DNA of 21,093 nucleotides from a virus. Both the position numbers and the translations under genes were made by a program. Shown here piece by piece: positions 2,788 to 21,093 of the stretch. The notes below the pieces were generated by a model. It had not been told where the DNA came from and did no database searches. It worked only from the letters and a program-made list of their open reading frames with translations. How positions within the stretch are numbered: position 1 is the stretch's first letter; each line of letters begins with the position of its first letter. The stretch lies in IMG/VR virus record IMGVR_UViG_3300044823_000376, positions 1 to 21,093 of that record; one strand, 5' to 3'.

Positions 2788-2993
2788 TGGAAAATTTAAA
2801 TAAATGTACACCAATTGAATTAAATAAAATGCTTAATGATATCAAAGTAAAACATGATACATTAAAACAGGAGATTATTAATTATACTTACGAAGCTGAA
2901 GAACTTGAAAAAAAAATTAACGAAAAAATTAAAGTATTAACTGAGACAGAAAATTCTTATGTTTTATTAATCGAAGAAATGGAGAAAAGATAA
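2787..2993 (+). CDS. Short coiled-coil protein upstream of baseplate hub
   Basis: 68 residues, almost entirely one predicted coiled coil. After NKCTPIELNKMLNDIKVKHD the sequence runs in heptad-like spacing of Leu/Ile/Val with many Lys and Glu up to the C-terminal EEMEKR. It overlaps both neighbours by a single base (TAATG on each side), so the three genes 2380-3892 form a translationally coupled set. It could be an assembly chaperone or a structural stalk for the hub. No family recognised. Confidence 0.65.
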   Translation: MENLNKCTPIELNKMLNDIKVKHDTLKQEIINYTYEAEELEKKINEKIKVLTETENSYVLLIEEMEKR

Positions 2994-3892
2994 TGTCAGG
3001 ATTTGATAAACCAATAATACAAACAAGTAATCCTTTTAAGAAATTAGGTACTTACGAAGTCACCAGAACAATTTATTATGGTGAGGTGATATCTATTGAC
3101 GACCCGACAGATGGTGGCAGAATTCAAGTTAAAATACCCGATTTGGATAATCAGACAGGGAATGCTGATTTACCTTATTGCTATCCTATGTTACCAAAAT
3201 TCTTCTTCCTTATTCCGCAAGTGGGCGAAATTGTTAGAATTTTTCTTGAAGACATAAAATATCCTCAAAGAAGTAGGTTTTGGATGGGCAGTATTATATC
3301 GCAACCACATAAAATTGGTTTTGATACGATTTATACAGCATTATCAACAACAAATATGGGATTAACTCTCCCAGAAACAGCACCTTCAACTCTTCCTGAT
3401 GCGATAGGAGTATATCCTTTACCAAGCGATGTTGCAATAGTAGGTAAGGTCAATGCTGACGTTATTTTACGAACAAATGAAGTTCATATAAGGGCAGGCA
3501 AACATGAAAATGGCAATGTGTTAAAATTAAATACAAAAAATCCAGCATCAATTAATCTTGTTTTTGAACCAGAAAATTTGATCGCAACAACTCCTACTTA
3601 TCAAAGCAGTACAGTTATATTGAGCGACAAAATTGCATTAATATCACATACTGGCAAACCACAATTTAAAGCAGCAGAATTAACAGCAGATGATAGAGTA
3701 AGAATATTTTCTGAAGGTCATCCAGTTGCAAGAGGTGATGTATTGGTGGTAGCATTAAAAATAATTATAAACGCACTTATTAATCATATTCATGGATATT
3801 CAGGTTTGCCAGCAGATAAAAATGCATTAATAAATGACTTAGAAAAAATTAATCTTGATAATATTTTACAAAAAAATATTGTTATTAATTAA
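2993..3892 (+). CDS. Baseplate hub / spike protein with gp5-type OB-fold, no lysozyme domain
   Basis: 299 residues. Residues 25-110 match the OB-fold at the N-terminus of T4 gp5-like baseplate hub proteins: YYGEVISIDDPTDGGRIQVK, then the DLP..YPMLP...F..PQVGE.VRI pattern and RFWMGSI. The middle (155-250) is beta-rich (VILRTNEVHIRAGKH). In this family such repeats form the needle-like spike that pierces the outer membrane. The C-terminus (254-299) is helical and contains an H-x-H pair, His265 and His267. The lysozyme domain of T4 gp5 is absent, so peptidoglycan cutting must come from another protein. It closes a coupled gene set, and tnpB follows on the other strand. The OB-fold call is strong; the spike role is inference from the family. 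Confidence 0.75.
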   Translation: MSGFDKPIIQTSNPFKKLGTYEVTRTIYYGEVISIDDPTDGGRIQVKIPDLDNQTGNADLPYCYPMLPKFFFLIPQVGEIVRIFLEDIKYPQRSRFWMGSIISQPHKIGFDTIYTALSTTNMGLTLPETAPSTLPDAIGVYPLPSDVAIVGKVNADVILRTNEVHIRAGKHENGNVLKLNTKNPASINLVFEPENLIATTPTYQSSTVILSDKIALISHTGKPQFKAAELTADDRVRIFSEGHPVARGDVLVVALKIIINALINHIHGYSGLPADKNALINDLEKINLDNILQKNIVIN

Positions 3893-4060
3893 AAATTAAT
3901 TACTTTTGCACTCTGTAAACTACCCACAAACTAAAGACTTGTTGGCTTTAAACCTCACTAATTATGCAAAGAGCAGAACATAGCGGATTTTTCAGGAGTA
4001 TTTACACTAACTCCCCATGCAGCAATATTCTTAGCAGCATTATAATCTGCATCCATAACA
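3893..4060 (-). ncRNA. Possible omega (guide) RNA at the tnpB 3' end
   Basis: In IS605-type elements the guide RNA of TnpB overlaps the end of the tnpB gene, runs to the right end of the element and carries a guide from the adjacent flank. Here the matching zone is the last coding bases plus 65 non-coding bases (3893-3957). It contains a small potential hairpin (TAAAG 3932-3936 with CTTTA 3946-3950). Boundaries cannot be fixed from sequence alone. If the right end is near 3903, the guide would match the 3' end of the hub gene region. Confidence 0.3.
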
Positions 4061-5132
4061 TTACCACAATTTTTACATCTAAAGCGTTTACTATTTCTAA
4101 TGCCAATATGATTACAAATATTGCAAGTTTGACTGGTATAGGCAGGTGGTACAGCAATCAATTTAACACCAGAAAGCAAGGATTTATAAGTGAGAAAACT
4201 GCGAAGTTGATAAAAACTCCAACGATTCAATTCAGTTTTTTGTGCTTTACTCTTTGTTTTTGCTGTTTTACGAATATTAGTCAAATCTTCAATAGCAATA
4301 CCTTTATGTTCTTCTTTGGCTTTTGCTACAATCTGCTTGCTTATTGTATGATTATTAATCATAACAAAACGTTTTTCTCTCCCACTAAGCCGTTTCAAAA
4401 GTTTCTTACAATTCTTTTTAGTAGAATTAGAAGATTCCTTTTTTGTGCCTTTGGATTGAACAGACGCTCTTACTTTAGAATATTTTTTACGAACTTTTTT
4501 AAGTTGTTCGGAATTATAATTAGTGCCATCAGAAAGTACTGCAATATCAGTTTGACCAAAATCAACACCAATAAATTCTTCAATGTCTTCGATTTCCGTA
4601 TCAGGTACTTCAACAGTTTGAAACAAATAAAATTTGTCTTTCTTAAATACCAAATCTGCTTCACCTTTAATATAAGGAAGATAATTTCGATTATGACAAA
4701 TAAAGGATATTTTCAATCTACCACCAATAGACCAAATATTAACAATATCATTTATTTTATAGGTAAGTATTCGACTATCATAAGTAATACTACCAAAAAG
4801 TTTAAAAGTTCTTTTAATTTTTTTATCAGATTTATAACTGTCAGAAACTTTGCTAATACATCTTACAATAATTTGACTGCTAAGATTAAACTTATTTTTA
4901 ATCCGATAATAGCATTCATTGTGAAGTTTAAACTGATTAAAACATTTGGTTTGCCAAGCAATATTAGAAATATCATTACAAGCATTATTAGCTTCCTTAA
5001 TTGTATTAAAAAGGTATTCTGCTTGTTCAGCACTTGGCAAAAGTTTAATTTTAAGAATAAGTTTCATATAATATATATTACAAATATTATGCCAATAATT
5101 CAAATAATTGAAAATAATTATAATTTAATTAC
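3896..5132 (-). mobile_element. Candidate solitary IS605-type tnpB insertion in a structural operon
   Basis: The tnpB gene opposes both neighbours and interrupts what otherwise reads as one operon. The 8-mer TTAATTAC occurs at 3896-3903 and at 5125-5132. Collapsing the two copies would leave the nuclease ATG (5145) only a few tens of bases after the hub stop, a normal operon gap. The family does not make ordinary target duplications, so these repeats are only tentative boundaries. No tnpA is present, so mobility would need help in trans. Confidence 0.4.
3958..5067 (-). CDS. tnpB: TnpB RNA-guided nuclease (IS200/IS605 accessory protein)
   Basis: 369 residues from the ATG at 5067. A longer frame begins at 5103, but MKLILKIKLLPSAEQ is the usual TnpB-type beginning. 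The N-terminal part (1-160) is the helix-turn-helix/WED region. The RuvC residues are all present: Asp169 in IGVDFGQTD, Glu260 in IAIEDLTNI and Asp341 in DADYNAAKNI. A zinc finger (Cys315, Cys318, Cys331, Cys334) lies between the last two, preceded by the typical VPPAYTSQTC. Family members are RNA-guided double-strand DNA nucleases that help transposon retention; activity here is inferred from intact residues. No tnpA transposase accompanies it. It lies opposite to the surrounding structural genes, indicating a later insertion. The tail after Asp341 (about 28 residues) probably overlaps a guide RNA. Confidence 0.9.
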   Translation of the reverse strand: MKLILKIKLLPSAEQAEYLFNTIKEANNACNDISNIAWQTKCFNQFKLHNECYYRIKNKFNLSSQIIVRCISKVSDSYKSDKKIKRTFKLFGSITYDSRILTYKINDIVNIWSIGGRLKISFICHNRNYLPYIKGEADLVFKKDKFYLFQTVEVPDTEIEDIEEFIGVDFGQTDIAVLSDGTNYNSEQLKKVRKKYSKVRASVQSKGTKKESSNSTKKNCKKLLKRLSGREKRFVMINNHTISKQIVAKAKEEHKGIAIEDLTNIRKTAKTKSKAQKTELNRWSFYQLRSFLTYKSLLSGVKLIAVPPAYTSQTCNICNHIGIRNSKRFRCKNCGNVMDADYNAAKNIAAWGVSVNTPEKSAMFCSLHN

Positions 5133-5144
5133 GGAACAACAATT

Positions 5145-5936
5145 ATGAATACTGATTTTCCTATATCTAATGAATTGTTTACAGCATTTAATGACGTAAC
5201 CTTTTATGATGAACCACATAAATATTATCTTGATGGTAAAGAACTAATATCAGTAACCACATTAATACATAAATATCAAGAAGAATTTAATGAAAAATAC
5301 TGGTCTGAATATAAAGGAAACCAATTTGATATAACTCCTAAAGAAATAATCAGAGCATGGAAATTTATCAACAAAAAAGGTACAATCAGAGGTTCAGCAA
5401 TACATGATTATGCTGAAAATTTATTTCAGAATAAAAAATTTGAATATCCAAAACAATTAATATTAAATGAATTTGGATTTGACCCCGTACTATATACATA
5501 TAATATTTGTAAAAAACATGTAGATAAATTTTATGGTGATGTTCAAGGTAAATTAATTCCAATTCGAACAGAATTAGTAGTATATGATAGAGAAACATTA
5601 ATTGGTGGTATGCTTGATATTTTATTCTGGAATGTAAAGGCAAAAGAATTTCAAATCTGGGACTATAAAACCAATAAAGAATTTACTTATGAAATGAAAG
5701 ACAGACATTTAATTAATGATTTATATTTACTTGAAGATTGTGATCTTGAATTATATTCATTACAACTTGGTTTATATAAATATATTATTGAAAAAAACAT
5801 ACCAATTAAACTTGGTAAATCATATCTTGTTTGGTTTTCTCATAATAATGATAATTATAAAATAATTGAAACAAAAAACATGTCATATTATATTGATATT
5901 ATTGTAAAAAACAGAATTCAGGAATTAGCTGCATAG
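5145..5936 (+). CDS. PD-(D/E)XK nuclease, Cas4/RecB-like
   Basis: 263 residues. The core of the PD-(D/E)XK exonuclease family is visible in order: SVTTLI (36-41), RGSAIHDYAE with His87, TELVVYD with Glu143, GGMLD with Asp158, IWDYKTNKE with Asp173 and Lys175, and the QLGLYKY box with Gln207 and Tyr211. This pattern (H...D...D-x-K...Q-x3-Y) is that of Cas4/AddB/RecB nucleases. There are no four cysteines for an iron-sulphur cluster as in Cas4. It would act on phage or host DNA ends in replication, recombination or packaging; the exact role is unknown. It sits at the end of the hub operon and is followed by a two-way terminator. Catalytic residues look intact. Confidence 0.8.
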   Translation: MNTDFPISNELFTAFNDVTFYDEPHKYYLDGKELISVTTLIHKYQEEFNEKYWSEYKGNQFDITPKEIIRAWKFINKKGTIRGSAIHDYAENLFQNKKFEYPKQLILNEFGFDPVLYTYNICKKHVDKFYGDVQGKLIPIRTELVVYDRETLIGGMLDILFWNVKAKEFQIWDYKTNKEFTYEMKDRHLINDLYLLEDCDLELYSLQLGLYKYIIEKNIPIKLGKSYLVWFSHNNDNYKIIETKNMSYYIDIIVKNRIQELAA

Positions 5937-6039: not shown

Positions 6040-6528
6040 CTACATATTTAGGATGCAACGCCACGGTTGGATAGTTAGTTGGACCGTAGTCAACCCATCT
6101 TCCTCATAACTGTTTTCACCAAAGTCGATTGCTGTAATCATACATTGTTCCAAAGTCCATTTTTCAACCTCAACCCCTGTTGGGTCAACAGCTTTTAAAA
6201 GAACGTTTTTCTTATAACCTGCTGCATAACCCATACGACCTGTAAGTGATTCTGCATGTAAACGTACCCACTCCATCAATTGTTGTGATGTAGACGGTCC
6301 GATTGGGTCATAGAATGTTAATTGCATTTCTTCCCAACTATATCTGCCAGCAACATAGTCCTGTTCGTTCATAAATTGAATCTGAACTGAATTAATTTTC
6401 ATTGAAGGTCTTTTGAATTTTTGGATTTTCCAAACTTCAATACCTAAATCGTCACTAAATTCTGCGAAGAATCTATTTATCCTCTTGGGTTCATATTGGA
6501 AGGGGATACTTCTTATCATTTCTGCCAT
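6040..6528 (-). CDS. Tail tube protein (T4 gp19-like)
   Basis: 162 residues. It matches the gp19-type inner tail tube family in size and layout: an N-terminal RFFAEFSDDLGIEVWKIQ strand region, then a central segment with DYVAGRYSWEEMQLTFYDPI and QQLMEWVRLHAESLTG, and a C-terminal set KWTLEQCMITAIDFGENSY ending VQLTIQPWRCIL. These are typical of tube monomers that stack in hexamer rings inside the sheath. It lies 65 bases after the sheath gene on the same strand, the conserved sheath-tube order of contractile tails. A GTATTTAT element 38 bases upstream could boost its expression independently of the sheath, as expected for a very abundant protein. No oddities seen. Confidence 0.9.
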   Translation of the reverse strand: MAEMIRSIPFQYEPKRINRFFAEFSDDLGIEVWKIQKFKRPSMKINSVQIQFMNEQDYVAGRYSWEEMQLTFYDPIGPSTSQQLMEWVRLHAESLTGRMGYAAGYKKNVLLKAVDPTGVEVEKWTLEQCMITAIDFGENSYEEDGLTTVQLTIQPWRCILNM

Positions 6529-6566
6529 ATCATTGTCTGTTTTAAATTATATATGCTTATTTTTAT

Positions 6567-6576
6567 TATAAATACT
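6567..6576 (-). promoter_or_regulatory. GTATTTAT element upstream of tail tube
   Basis: Reads AGTATTTATA on the minus strand, 38 bases before the tube start codon, in the sheath-tube gap. Suggests the tube has its own promoter. Confidence 0.55.
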
Positions 6577-6593
6577 TACGTCTTAAAAATCTA

Positions 6594-9374
6594 TTATGCA
6601 CCAATATCAGCAAAAGATGCTCCAGAAGGAGTAATTGTAAATGTGATACCTATGAATTCAACAGCACGTGTTGGTTTCAAGTATAAATCACCATACAATT
6701 CATTTCTGTCCATACTTTCTTGACTGTTATTGCTATTATCCATCTTGATTTTGTAGTCATTCAAACCTCTTTCTCTCTTAATTGTATCAAGAACTGGAGT
6801 AGATTTAGTTATGAACTGATCAATTGTTGTTTGATCACCTTGTTCAAATACAAGTCTGATTGCAATATTTGCAATAAGAACCTTGATCTGAAGTAATAAT
6901 CTACGAACATTGATTCTGTCAAGAGCACTTTCTTTAACTTGTAATGTTTTTTGTCCAAATATTGCTGTACCTGCATCTGCAAAATCAGCCAATGGATTAA
7001 TTCTACCTTTATATAAAACATCACGAGCATCCTGTGATAATTTGAACATTGATTTTCTTGCATCAGTTACACCACGATTCAAACCAGCAGGTGCGAACCA
7101 AGGGAATGCAGTATTGTCAGTAAATGCCATTGCTTTTACAACTTCACCTGTTGGTGGAAGATAAACATTAACATTATTCTGAGTATCTGCTATCTGTATC
7201 CAAGGGAAGTATGTGCATGAATAACTTGAATCAATGCCAGTATCATTAAGCAATCCAGCAACATCTGTTGCAAATTGAACATCTTGTTTTGGTTGACCAA
7301 CTAATTGTGGATTTCCAATAAGTGGAGCATCAATAACATATAATGTATCTGCTCTATCCTGTTCAATTACATCGATTGTGTCTTCAACCAAAATAGTATT
7401 ATTTGACCAGTCAATACCCGGAGTTGCAAAAAGGTTAATTGTAACTTCTTCAGGATTTGAGAAAGTGTTAATTGCAGTCTGCCATGCTTGGAAGTCATTT
7501 AATGCTGTTTTTTGTTTTTCATTAATAAGATTTCCATCATAAATAGCTCCCTGATTGTAGAAATCACCATATGAACGGTAACCTCTGTTCACGTCCCAAC
7601 CATCAAAACCGCCAGCAGGAACAAGAGTGAATTTTCTTGAATTAATATCAAAATAAGGACTATTTGGGTCTACAACATCATTAACAGTCTGGAAATTACC
7701 AGCACCTGTTTCAAATGTACCAATAACAATAGTTCCTTCAGTATAACCAGTTCCAGTTGCGCCAGAGTCCATATGAAAACCTTTAGTTTTTGTAAAGCCA
7801 GATATTGCATTACTTCCATCATTTCTCAAACTATTAAAATTAAAGAAATTTTGATTAATACCACTTCCAATTGAAGTTAGAGTTGAATATCCGTTTTCAG
7901 ATATACCTAAATATACTTTTCTAAGTTTATCAGTACCAGTATAACCAGTTTTATAGAAAATTTTAGGTGGAATACCATTTACACCAGATGTTGTTTTTGT
8001 TATGGCTGAAGTATAGTTATTAAATTCATAACCTTCAAAACCAGCAGGAAATAAATCAGGAGAAAGATTATCTGCAAGTTGAATCATAACATAATCACTT
8101 ATAATATCGTATACTCCATCTGTTGTACCAATACGCTGTCCAATGAAGGTTGTTAATCCTTGAATCAATGAACATCTTGTATATGATTCTAATACAATTG
8201 GATTTGCATCAGTATCATTAAAATCACGAATCAATACGTCAAATTCCAAAGTTATTGGATTAATGTTTGCAATGCTGATTTTAATTTCTTGATTAGCAGC
8301 ATCACCGTCTGAAATACTGACAAATTTAAATAATCTGTCAATTTCGCTACCTTTTAATTGAGATACAACCCAAGGAGTTTCTGGTGTTTGAAAAATTGTT
8401 TTATAATTTGTATAAACATCAGATTTACAATCAATCAATTTAGTATTAATACCATATCCATATCCGTTAGCATCTAACAATTCGATCAAGTCTGGATATA
8501 TTGCCTGAACCCAAATCTTTGTGTTTTTATCTTTTGGCAAAGAACCAACTACATTTGGTAAAAAACTACTTGAATTTGGATTTAAAGTAGCTGTATATTT
8601 TGTGTCATCTGATGTTTGTAATGTAAATTGTGCAAACAAATCGCCAGTTCCAACAATTGTTGAGTTTGCTGGCATTGTAAGACCAGTTGTATAAAATGTT
8701 GTTGTTGATGGAGCATTTACATTATCAGTCACATTACCTCTACTTCTAATAACTGCAAGTACCATATTTTCATATTGAGTATATGATGTACCAGTATGTA
8801 GTGTTTTAGTATAATGTGTTGTACCGCTACCAACAGTACTGTTAAATGTTGTTACTCTAAAAACATATGAATAACCAGCAAAATTTGTTGTACCACTTAC
8901 TTTAGTAAAACCAGTAAATGTTGTACCAGTTTGACCACTATAACTAATTACAACACCTAAATAAGTAAAATTAGTAAATGTTGTGTTACCAGTTGTACCA
9001 CTTCCAGAAGTATGTTCTGTTGCTGGATTAAGACCAGCACTTAATGTAATTGCCCACGCTTTACCAGCATCATATCCAGATAATCCCAATACTCTTGTTA
9101 CATATAATTGATTGGTTTCTTCCAAATATGCATTTGCCACATATGGTAATTGATATTTAAGACCTTTATCACCACTTGCAAATCTTTCAATGCTTTGAGC
9201 ACCGAATCTTGTTTGAAATTGACCCTTATCCTGAATAAAGATATGTTCAAATGCAGGTCCTTTTAATGTTTCACCAACTAAACCTAAAGTGGTGATACCC
9301 ACGTTACGTGTAACGAATGTTATGTCACGTTCTCTAAATTTTGCTCCCGGAGAGACAAATACAAATTCTGCCAT
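6594..9374 (-). CDS. Contractile tail sheath protein (T4 gp18-like)
   Basis: 926 residues, considerably longer than T4 gp18 (659). The N-terminus (MAEFVFVSPGAKFRERDIT, residues 1-110) and the C-terminal domain (about 640-926) carry the sheath hallmarks: DARDVLYKGRINPLADF near residue 792, IFGQKTLQ, then RINVRRLLLQI around 820, and the closing YLKPTRAVEFIGITFTI strand. Residues from about 115 to 260 are a Thr/Gly/Ser-rich beta insertion, likely a surface-exposed decoration, and further inserted material fills the middle. The protein forms the contracting outer tube that drives the tube through the host envelope. The start is the first ATG after a 299-base divergent promoter region. The tube gene follows directly. 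Confidence 0.92.
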   Translation of the reverse strand: MAEFVFVSPGAKFRERDITFVTRNVGITTLGLVGETLKGPAFEHIFIQDKGQFQTRFGAQSIERFASGDKGLKYQLPYVANAYLEETNQLYVTRVLGLSGYDAGKAWAITLSAGLNPATEHTSGSGTTGNTTFTNFTYLGVVISYSGQTGTTFTGFTKVSGTTNFAGYSYVFRVTTFNSTVGSGTTHYTKTLHTGTSYTQYENMVLAVIRSRGNVTDNVNAPSTTTFYTTGLTMPANSTIVGTGDLFAQFTLQTSDDTKYTATLNPNSSSFLPNVVGSLPKDKNTKIWVQAIYPDLIELLDANGYGYGINTKLIDCKSDVYTNYKTIFQTPETPWVVSQLKGSEIDRLFKFVSISDGDAANQEIKISIANINPITLEFDVLIRDFNDTDANPIVLESYTRCSLIQGLTTFIGQRIGTTDGVYDIISDYVMIQLADNLSPDLFPAGFEGYEFNNYTSAITKTTSGVNGIPPKIFYKTGYTGTDKLRKVYLGISENGYSTLTSIGSGINQNFFNFNSLRNDGSNAISGFTKTKGFHMDSGATGTGYTEGTIVIGTFETGAGNFQTVNDVVDPNSPYFDINSRKFTLVPAGGFDGWDVNRGYRSYGDFYNQGAIYDGNLINEKQKTALNDFQAWQTAINTFSNPEEVTINLFATPGIDWSNNTILVEDTIDVIEQDRADTLYVIDAPLIGNPQLVGQPKQDVQFATDVAGLLNDTGIDSSYSCTYFPWIQIADTQNNVNVYLPPTGEVVKAMAFTDNTAFPWFAPAGLNRGVTDARKSMFKLSQDARDVLYKGRINPLADFADAGTAIFGQKTLQVKESALDRINVRRLLLQIKVLIANIAIRLVFEQGDQTTIDQFITKSTPVLDTIKRERGLNDYKIKMDNSNNSQESMDRNELYGDLYLKPTRAVEFIGITFTITPSGASFADIGA

Positions 9375-20591: not shown

Positions 20592-20744
20592 ATGAAAAAT
20601 ATTAAAAATAAAGAAGCCGTTATTATTTTAAGATTAGAACAAAATCTTAAAACAGATTATTTAAGGTTTTGCAAAGAAAACGGATATTCATTATCTAAAA
20701 GAATAAGAGTATTATTAGAAAATGACATGAAAAATGGAAAATAA
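20592..20744 (+). CDS. Ribbon-helix-helix-like small regulator
   Basis: 50 residues. The pattern EAVIILRLEQNLKTDYLRFC, then KENGYSLSKRIRVLLENDM, fits a ribbon-helix-helix DNA-binding protein: a short strand (VIILRL), helix A (LKTDYLRFCKEN), a GYS turn, and helix B (LSKRIRVLLEND). RHH proteins bind DNA as dimers and often regulate their own operon; the palindromic promoter region just upstream is a natural candidate site, though this is inference. It overlaps the next gene by 11 bases, so both are made together. Too short for automatic callers but well supported by frame, promoter and coupling. Confidence 0.65.
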   Translation: MKNIKNKEAVIILRLEQNLKTDYLRFCKENGYSLSKRIRVLLENDMKNGK

Positions 20745-21093
20745 TATATTATTATATAATAAAAACGAATTATTAAATTGGTTTACAACTGATAATAAGT
20801 CAGGTTATAAGTCAACAGAAAAATGGTTAAAGAAACATCAATTAGAGTTATATAATTTAATTATTTTGAATTCAAATAATGATTCAATTTTATTTATTGA
20901 AAAAATATTATTATATTTAAAGGACATAAAAGAAATTCCATGTTGTCCAATATGTGGAAATAAATGTAATTTTAATGGTAGCATTAAACATGGTTTTGCA
21001 TCTTATTGTAGTAATACCTGTTCAAATAAATCACCACTAACTACTATGAAAAAAATTACAGCGACAAAAACCGAAAAATACATAAATAATTTA
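20734..21093 (+). CDS. N-terminus of zinc-finger protein, probable phage homing-type endonuclease (cut by window)
   Basis: 120 residues are visible and the frame is still open at the right edge. Residues 1-70 are helical and lysine/leucine-rich. A zinc-binding region follows: IPCCPICGNKC (paired Cys), then HGFASYCSNTCSNKSP, and TTMKKITATKTEKYI. This order, a C-x2-C knuckle followed by a YCSxxC unit and a K-T-x-E-K-Y helix, is typical of the N-terminal part of free-standing endonucleases spread through large phages; the catalytic part would lie beyond the window. It is coupled to the RHH-like gene (11-base overlap). Which nuclease fold it carries cannot be told from here. Confidence 0.6.
   Translation, partial: MENNILLYNKNELLNWFTTDNKSGYKSTEKWLKKHQLELYNLIILNSNNDSILFIEKILLYLKDIKEIPCCPICGNKCNFNGSIKHGFASYCSNTCSNKSPLTTMKKITATKTEKYINNL

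Follow-up and report, generated by a model that had tools for sequence, protein, structure and literature searches.

A solitary TnpB element that separates a phage exonuclease gene from its promoter and has an antisense strand kept free of stop codons

Solitary tnpB genes that have their own ends and are not accompanied by tnpA are known as IS1341-like elements. Among the closest described systems, ISDra2-type TnpB is a RuvC nuclease with a zinc ribbon, which uses the transposon-associated motif (TAM) TTGAT and takes its guide from the flank of the right end (Karvelis 2021, PMC8612924). A nuclease-dead TnpB, TldR, occurs in phages (PMC13418256), and the literature describes roles of TnpB in retention and gene drive, on chromosomes as well as on plasmids (PMC8612924, PMC11870625); gene drive was shown for plasmids (Mears 2025 preprint, PMC11870625). 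The element described here covers positions 3915-5144 on the minus strand of the IMG/VR virus record IMGVR_UViG_3300044823_000376, a complete fragment of 21,093 bases that was analysed at its full length and is called the window in the following. Judged by comparison with uninserted relatives, it is a solitary TnpB/omega-RNA element that has inserted exactly in front of the start codon of an exonuclease gene and thereby parts this gene from its promoter. Its antisense strand is free of stop codons, and we regard the element as probably an RNA-guided, homing-like element that is built for non-polar insertion by means of translational coupling.

The empty site could be read in many related phages (about 30 uninserted), which were found by searching with both neighbour genes. 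In the loci L003-L009, about 20 nt separate a gp5-like gene from the ATG of the exonuclease gene, and in the window these nucleotides are split by the element. The earlier note on this DNA had recorded only the coding sequence of tnpB and had suggested comparing the locus with and without the insert; this comparison gave a larger element of 1230 bp and no duplication of the target. Read along the minus strand, TTCAT comes first, followed by the left end, tnpB, the right end GTAGTTTAC and finally AGAGTGCAAAAGTAATTAAT. The TAM TTCAT (5145-5149, minus strand), as deduced from the empty sites and the left ends, is the reverse complement of ATGAA, that is, of the exonuclease start codon and the next bases. 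The left end (5068-5144, minus strand; 77 nt) has a length of 2 mod 3 and is open in the antisense frame. At the right end, a hairpin that is predicted to form the end of the omega-RNA scaffold (3923-3945, minus strand) is followed by TAGTTTAC at 3922-3915 and by the putative guide segment AGAGTGCAAAAGTAATTAAT (3895-3914, minus strand), which is drawn from the flank and was assigned by comparison of empty sites, right ends and targets.

About 50 relatives at unrelated sites share these ends and this layout, with TTCAT or a near variant before the left end, the hairpin and TAGTTTAC at the right end and diverse flanks beyond. Their boundaries were set by the TTCAT beside the conserved left end, blind to open reading frames (ORFs), and a few of them are ambiguous. 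Compensatory changes occur in five of the six predicted pairs of the right-end hairpin (39 right ends), as is expected of a functional one. When the last 150 nt of the window were folded alone, their stability was no greater than that of shuffles; the signal is the covariation. In four relatives (L001, L161, L186 and L187) TTCAT is replaced by ATCAT, CTCAT or GTCAT, and because only the first base of the TAM varies in them, the core target may be TCAT, the reverse complement of ATGA.

Through the insertion, the element has come to lie between the exonuclease gene and its Bacteroidetes-type promoter box, TACTTTTG (3901-3908, plus strand). The pattern TAnnTTTG is found within 14 nt of the ATG at 28 of 32 distinct empty sites, compared to 1.2% of background positions, and ATGAA is present at 27 of the 32. 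As the box and ATGAA are conserved across the empty sites, the target is, by this comparison, functionally constrained, as is often the case for the targets of homing endonucleases. The guide region spans TACTTTTG, so that the predicted guide copies the conserved promoter of the exonuclease gene. In uninserted relatives, e.g. in L003 after position 5897, the box lies about 4-8 nt from the ATG, and this spacing suggests leaderless or very-short-leader transcripts in this phage group. Insertion exactly at the start of an antisense ORF was found for 24 of 36 elements, compared to 24% of background TTCATs (p 7e-8). This preference alone could be due to the loss of gene-breaking insertions, but the antisense ORF of the element is not explicable in this way.

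This antisense ORF (3964-5148, plus strand) comprises 394 codons, is codon-aligned with tnpB and terminates in a TGA (5146-5148) that overlaps the ATG of the exonuclease gene (5145-5147). In all 47 relatives that were compared in this respect, the antisense strand is likewise open over nearly the full length, which corresponds to an ORF of approximately 400 codons. Because the open frame is codon-aligned, the sense gene has to avoid TTA, CTA and TCA. In the 47 relatives these codons occur 55 times, whereas 885 are expected from the codon usage of neighbouring genes; in the window none is observed instead of 26.5. None of 213 control genes is stop-free in antisense, no stop depletion is found in the other two antisense frames of tnpB, and other TnpB families that are AT-rich or of similar base composition mostly have 6-26 such stops, with the exception of L213, which has two. 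All of the seven loci added last have no stop in the body of the gene. Although the 47 sequences are related, the depletion must, on this comparison, be maintained, since synonymous sites among them are near saturation.

One might suspect that the avoidance of TTA, CTA and TCA is only a codon-preference artefact of a foreign gene, and A-ending codons as a class are indeed somewhat fewer in tnpB. However, this reduction is mild for the other A-ending codons, while the avoidance is almost complete and confined to the three antisense stops. It also ends where the antisense ORF begins. All 55 stops lie near the two gene ends, almost all in the last 9% of tnpB, and if the genes are divided at the last His codon, which is the antisense start, there are 10 stops in 16,580 codons inside the antisense ORF and 54 in 559 codons just outside (0.06 versus 9.7 per 100); in this comparison, the probability of finding none in the window copy is about 6e-17. 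This start is itself conserved, a CAT or CAC sense codon corresponding to ATG or GTG in the 46 scored genes. Furthermore, the openness runs on through the left end, which is non-coding in sense: 26 of 37 copies are open in the aligned frame, compared to a single copy for each of the other frames, and a left-end length of 2 mod 3 is likewise kept in 26 of 37 copies (p 5e-6), despite a range from 41 to 140 nt. We therefore rejected the codon artefact, which is hardly credible at all in view of the position and left-end tests.

In 19 of 32 copies, including that of the window, the antisense ORF stops with the TGA of the boundary ATGA, overlapping the next ATG. Further copies that end on ATGA are L002, L142, L001, L161, L187 and L191. 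The last of these (1928-2962; 41% identity) belongs to Candidatus Chloroploca and has an antisense ORF of 423 codons that ends on the ATGA of a 259-amino-acid ORF. Since this organism is a member of the Chloroflexota, the feature is not limited to Bacteroidota.

A different explanation for the openness would be a true overprinted gene with a functional product, for instance one that regulates TnpB or that serves the phage. Antisense overprinting has a precedent in laoB (PMC5810103), and start, frame and stop of the antisense ORF are all conserved. Its first codon positions, which are the synonymous sites of the sense gene, nevertheless diverge with a synonymous divergence (dS) of about 0.8-2.3, the identity of the antisense products in divergent pairs is 33.6%, whereas synonymous shuffles give 30.2% and plain codon identity shows nearly as large an excess, and the product has no match in Pfam or PHROG. 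We thus consider an overprinted gene unlikely. Because the amino acid similarity barely exceeds that of the shuffles and no family match exists, the kept feature is, as far as such comparisons can tell, the openness of the antisense strand and not its amino acid sequence, which is not clearly conserved. No description of an antisense ORF of this sort was found in the open-access papers that were searched.

Translational coupling would be the simplest purpose of this openness. The displaced exonuclease promoter would transcribe the stop-free antisense strand through the element, in which no terminator-like site was found, and the antisense ORF would be translated across the element up to its TGA, within the ATGA at the start of the exonuclease gene. 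There the ribosomes would re-initiate on this gene, so that the insertion would be non-polar and tolerable. The core motif TCAT/ATGA, a stop-start overlap, would suit such a design. The exonuclease ORF is strongly constrained (ratio of nonsynonymous to synonymous divergence, dN/dS, 0.09-0.15), which fits its continued expression without proving it. We lean slightly towards extending this to a whole clade of TnpB elements with "transparent" insertion, in which the ATGA target would serve as a stop-start overlap, the antisense strand would be selected as an ORF ending there, and the gene that was landed on would stay expressed.

Several observations weigh against the proposed homing-like element with non-polar insertion. 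Translation of the antisense ORF would have to begin at a putative start inside the right end, and the hairpin lies in the 5' leader of this ORF. Some relatives are inserted without an obvious gene downstream, and the exact insertion was seen in one copy only. Every sampled close relative mismatches the guide at position 4. Mismatches in the seed of TldR, nucleotides 1-6, matter (PMC13418256), and because position 4 falls in the seed of this related protein, the cutting of those phages is uncertain. There is also no dip of identity beside the insertion that would indicate co-conversion, the profile being flat at the junction. Finally, the evidence for both coupling and cleavage is comparative.

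The nuclease is intact in sequence. The tnpB gene, which runs on the minus strand from an ATG at 5067 to a stop codon at 3958, encodes 369 amino acids with matches to Cas12f1-like_TNB (E 6e-23) and OrfB_IS605 (E 2e-7) in Pfam, both exceeding the cut-off, and to the transposase family phrog_506 in PHROG (E 2e-44), and its nearest solved structures are Cas12f and TnpB chains. The acidic RuvC triad D-E-D (in GVDFG, IAIED and DADYNA, respectively) and the four zinc cysteines (CNIC..CKNC) are all present and are common to the relatives, which bears out the description of an intact TnpB in the earlier note; decay of the active site in relatives, which that note had named as evidence against its proposal, was looked for, and the residues are conserved. 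With dN/dS values of 0.09-0.26 versus the nearest relatives, tnpB is evidently under purifying selection and hence neither a chance ORF nor a decaying gene. In the phylogenetic tree, L002, L131 and a copy from Paludibacter are its closest relatives.

By its RuvC D-E-D residues, TNB zinc ribbon, insertion at a TAM without duplication and right-end structure, the element is assigned to the IS200/IS605 type and is IS1341-like. It shares with ISDra2 TnpB the RuvC domain and zinc ribbon, the insertion on the 3' side of a short TAM with no duplication of the target and the flank-derived guide, but differs in its TAM (TTCAT, core TCAT, instead of TTGAT), the lack of tnpA, the missing left-end hairpin and the stop-free antisense strand that ends on ATGA. 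Like IS1341-like elements, it has its own ends and no tnpA, whereas its phage-rich clade, the habit of inserting at start codons and the conserved antisense ORF set it apart; to our knowledge, neither of the latter two has been reported for IS1341-like elements. TldR is likewise a phage-borne TnpB relative with a guide that matches a promoter region. A nuclease-dead repressor of this type was ruled out here, as the RuvC active site is not mutated. A further difference is that the guide targets the empty site of the element itself and not a host gene.

The earlier note had considered that the nuclease might help the element to home into phages lacking it, might exclude competing phages or might belong to a simple passenger; it did not mention the position at a start codon, the lost left-end hairpin or the conserved openness of the antisense strand. 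The target for which it had suggested a search was found: the closest uninserted relatives contain the TAM and a target with 2-3 mismatches in 20 (positions 4, 15 and 20), whereas the best guide match within the window has 8 mismatches, so that insertion appears to have destroyed the recognition site. An exact 18-mer search of IMG/VR with TAM and seed revealed three unrelated sites, the orthologous empty site not being among them, and when uninserted relatives were sought for the L002 insertion, L002 was the sole match. It is plausible that guide-bearing TnpB cleaves the uninserted site in the genomes of co-infecting or sister phages and that the element is spread or kept when the break is repaired from the inserted copy, in the manner of homing endonucleases. 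As in the plasmid gene drive, the nuclease would act on insert-free copies, here presumably in phage genomes. With the GIY-YIG and HNH homing endonucleases of phages the element has in common a free-standing nuclease gene at an intergenic phage site, although its recognition would be guided by RNA and not by protein. Such genes of GIY-YIG and HNH type are found in the same inter-gene interval in L050 (5894-6520 and 7253-9403) and L034 (6524-8740), where no exonuclease gene is among the listed ORFs. The homing claim is thus supported by the target at the empty site, the intact residues, the purifying selection and the homing endonucleases at the same interval, while the seed mismatch and the flat co-conversion profile speak against it.

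The same targeting of a conserved site in related phages would be expected if TnpB were mainly an exclusion weapon against these phages and not a homing device. Killing and homing are indistinguishable in sequence data, but a single target site in near relatives, which would also be repaired by copying the element, makes the exclusion weapon quite improbable, a little more so than an overprinted gene. That the element is an ordinary, immobile insertion sequence remnant and an inactive passenger might be concluded from the lack of tnpA in the record, the left end without its hairpin and the 2-3 guide positions that deviate from the sampled relatives. A simple passenger, however, fits poorly with purifying selection and a full active site; moreover, the window copy has no antisense stop despite its remodelled left end, and its right-end stem is mostly intact, with one mismatch. 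We judge such a remnant to be unlikely as well.

Regarding mobility, the lack of an accompanying tnpA that had been stated earlier holds true for the whole window record, in which no Y1 transposase was found; only 2 of the 46 viral records with relatives contain one. Since bacterial genomes with relatives do carry Y1 transposase genes, mobilisation in trans is possible. The viral record of L165 also contains a tnpA beside a divergent tnpB (G033:C1, 72806-74758), possibly a complete IS605 that could mobilise solitary copies. The left-end hairpin is strong in most relatives and absent from the window copy, and as this transposition signal was lost while the nuclease was retained, the evidence points to selection on the nuclease.

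The window stems from a contractile-tailed phage, as indicated by sheath and tube genes. When sheath proteins are compared, myoviruses of Microcystis and Flavobacterium are among the nearest named phages, although the identity is low. To the left of the element lies a baseplate-spike or gp5-like gene (2993-3892, plus strand), recognized by a weak match only (phrog_430, E 9e-4), and to the right the intact exonuclease gene (5145-5936, plus strand; 263 amino acids; phrog_298, E 5e-21), whose start codon is the target site. The placement inside a structural operon therefore applies to the left side only, with the reservation of the weak match, since an exonuclease is non-structural. Similarly, tnpB is opposed to both adjoining genes, as had been noted, but shares the minus strand with the genes for tail tube and sheath, which follow to the right at 6040-9374. 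An Rfam scan at gathering thresholds and a tRNA scan of the window gave no matches. At 20734-21093 (plus strand), the contig end truncates a homing endonuclease gene (phrog_3339, E 4e-7), of which the first part is present.

Insertion sequences are usually regarded as gene-breaking. If the proposed coupling is true, a family that keeps both strands readable would represent a new way for a mobile element to cut its cost, and insertion without silencing could help to explain the persistence of solitary TnpB genes in compact phage genomes. As the guide, the TAM and the empty sites have all been identified at this locus, the question of why TnpB proteins spread in phages is directly testable here.
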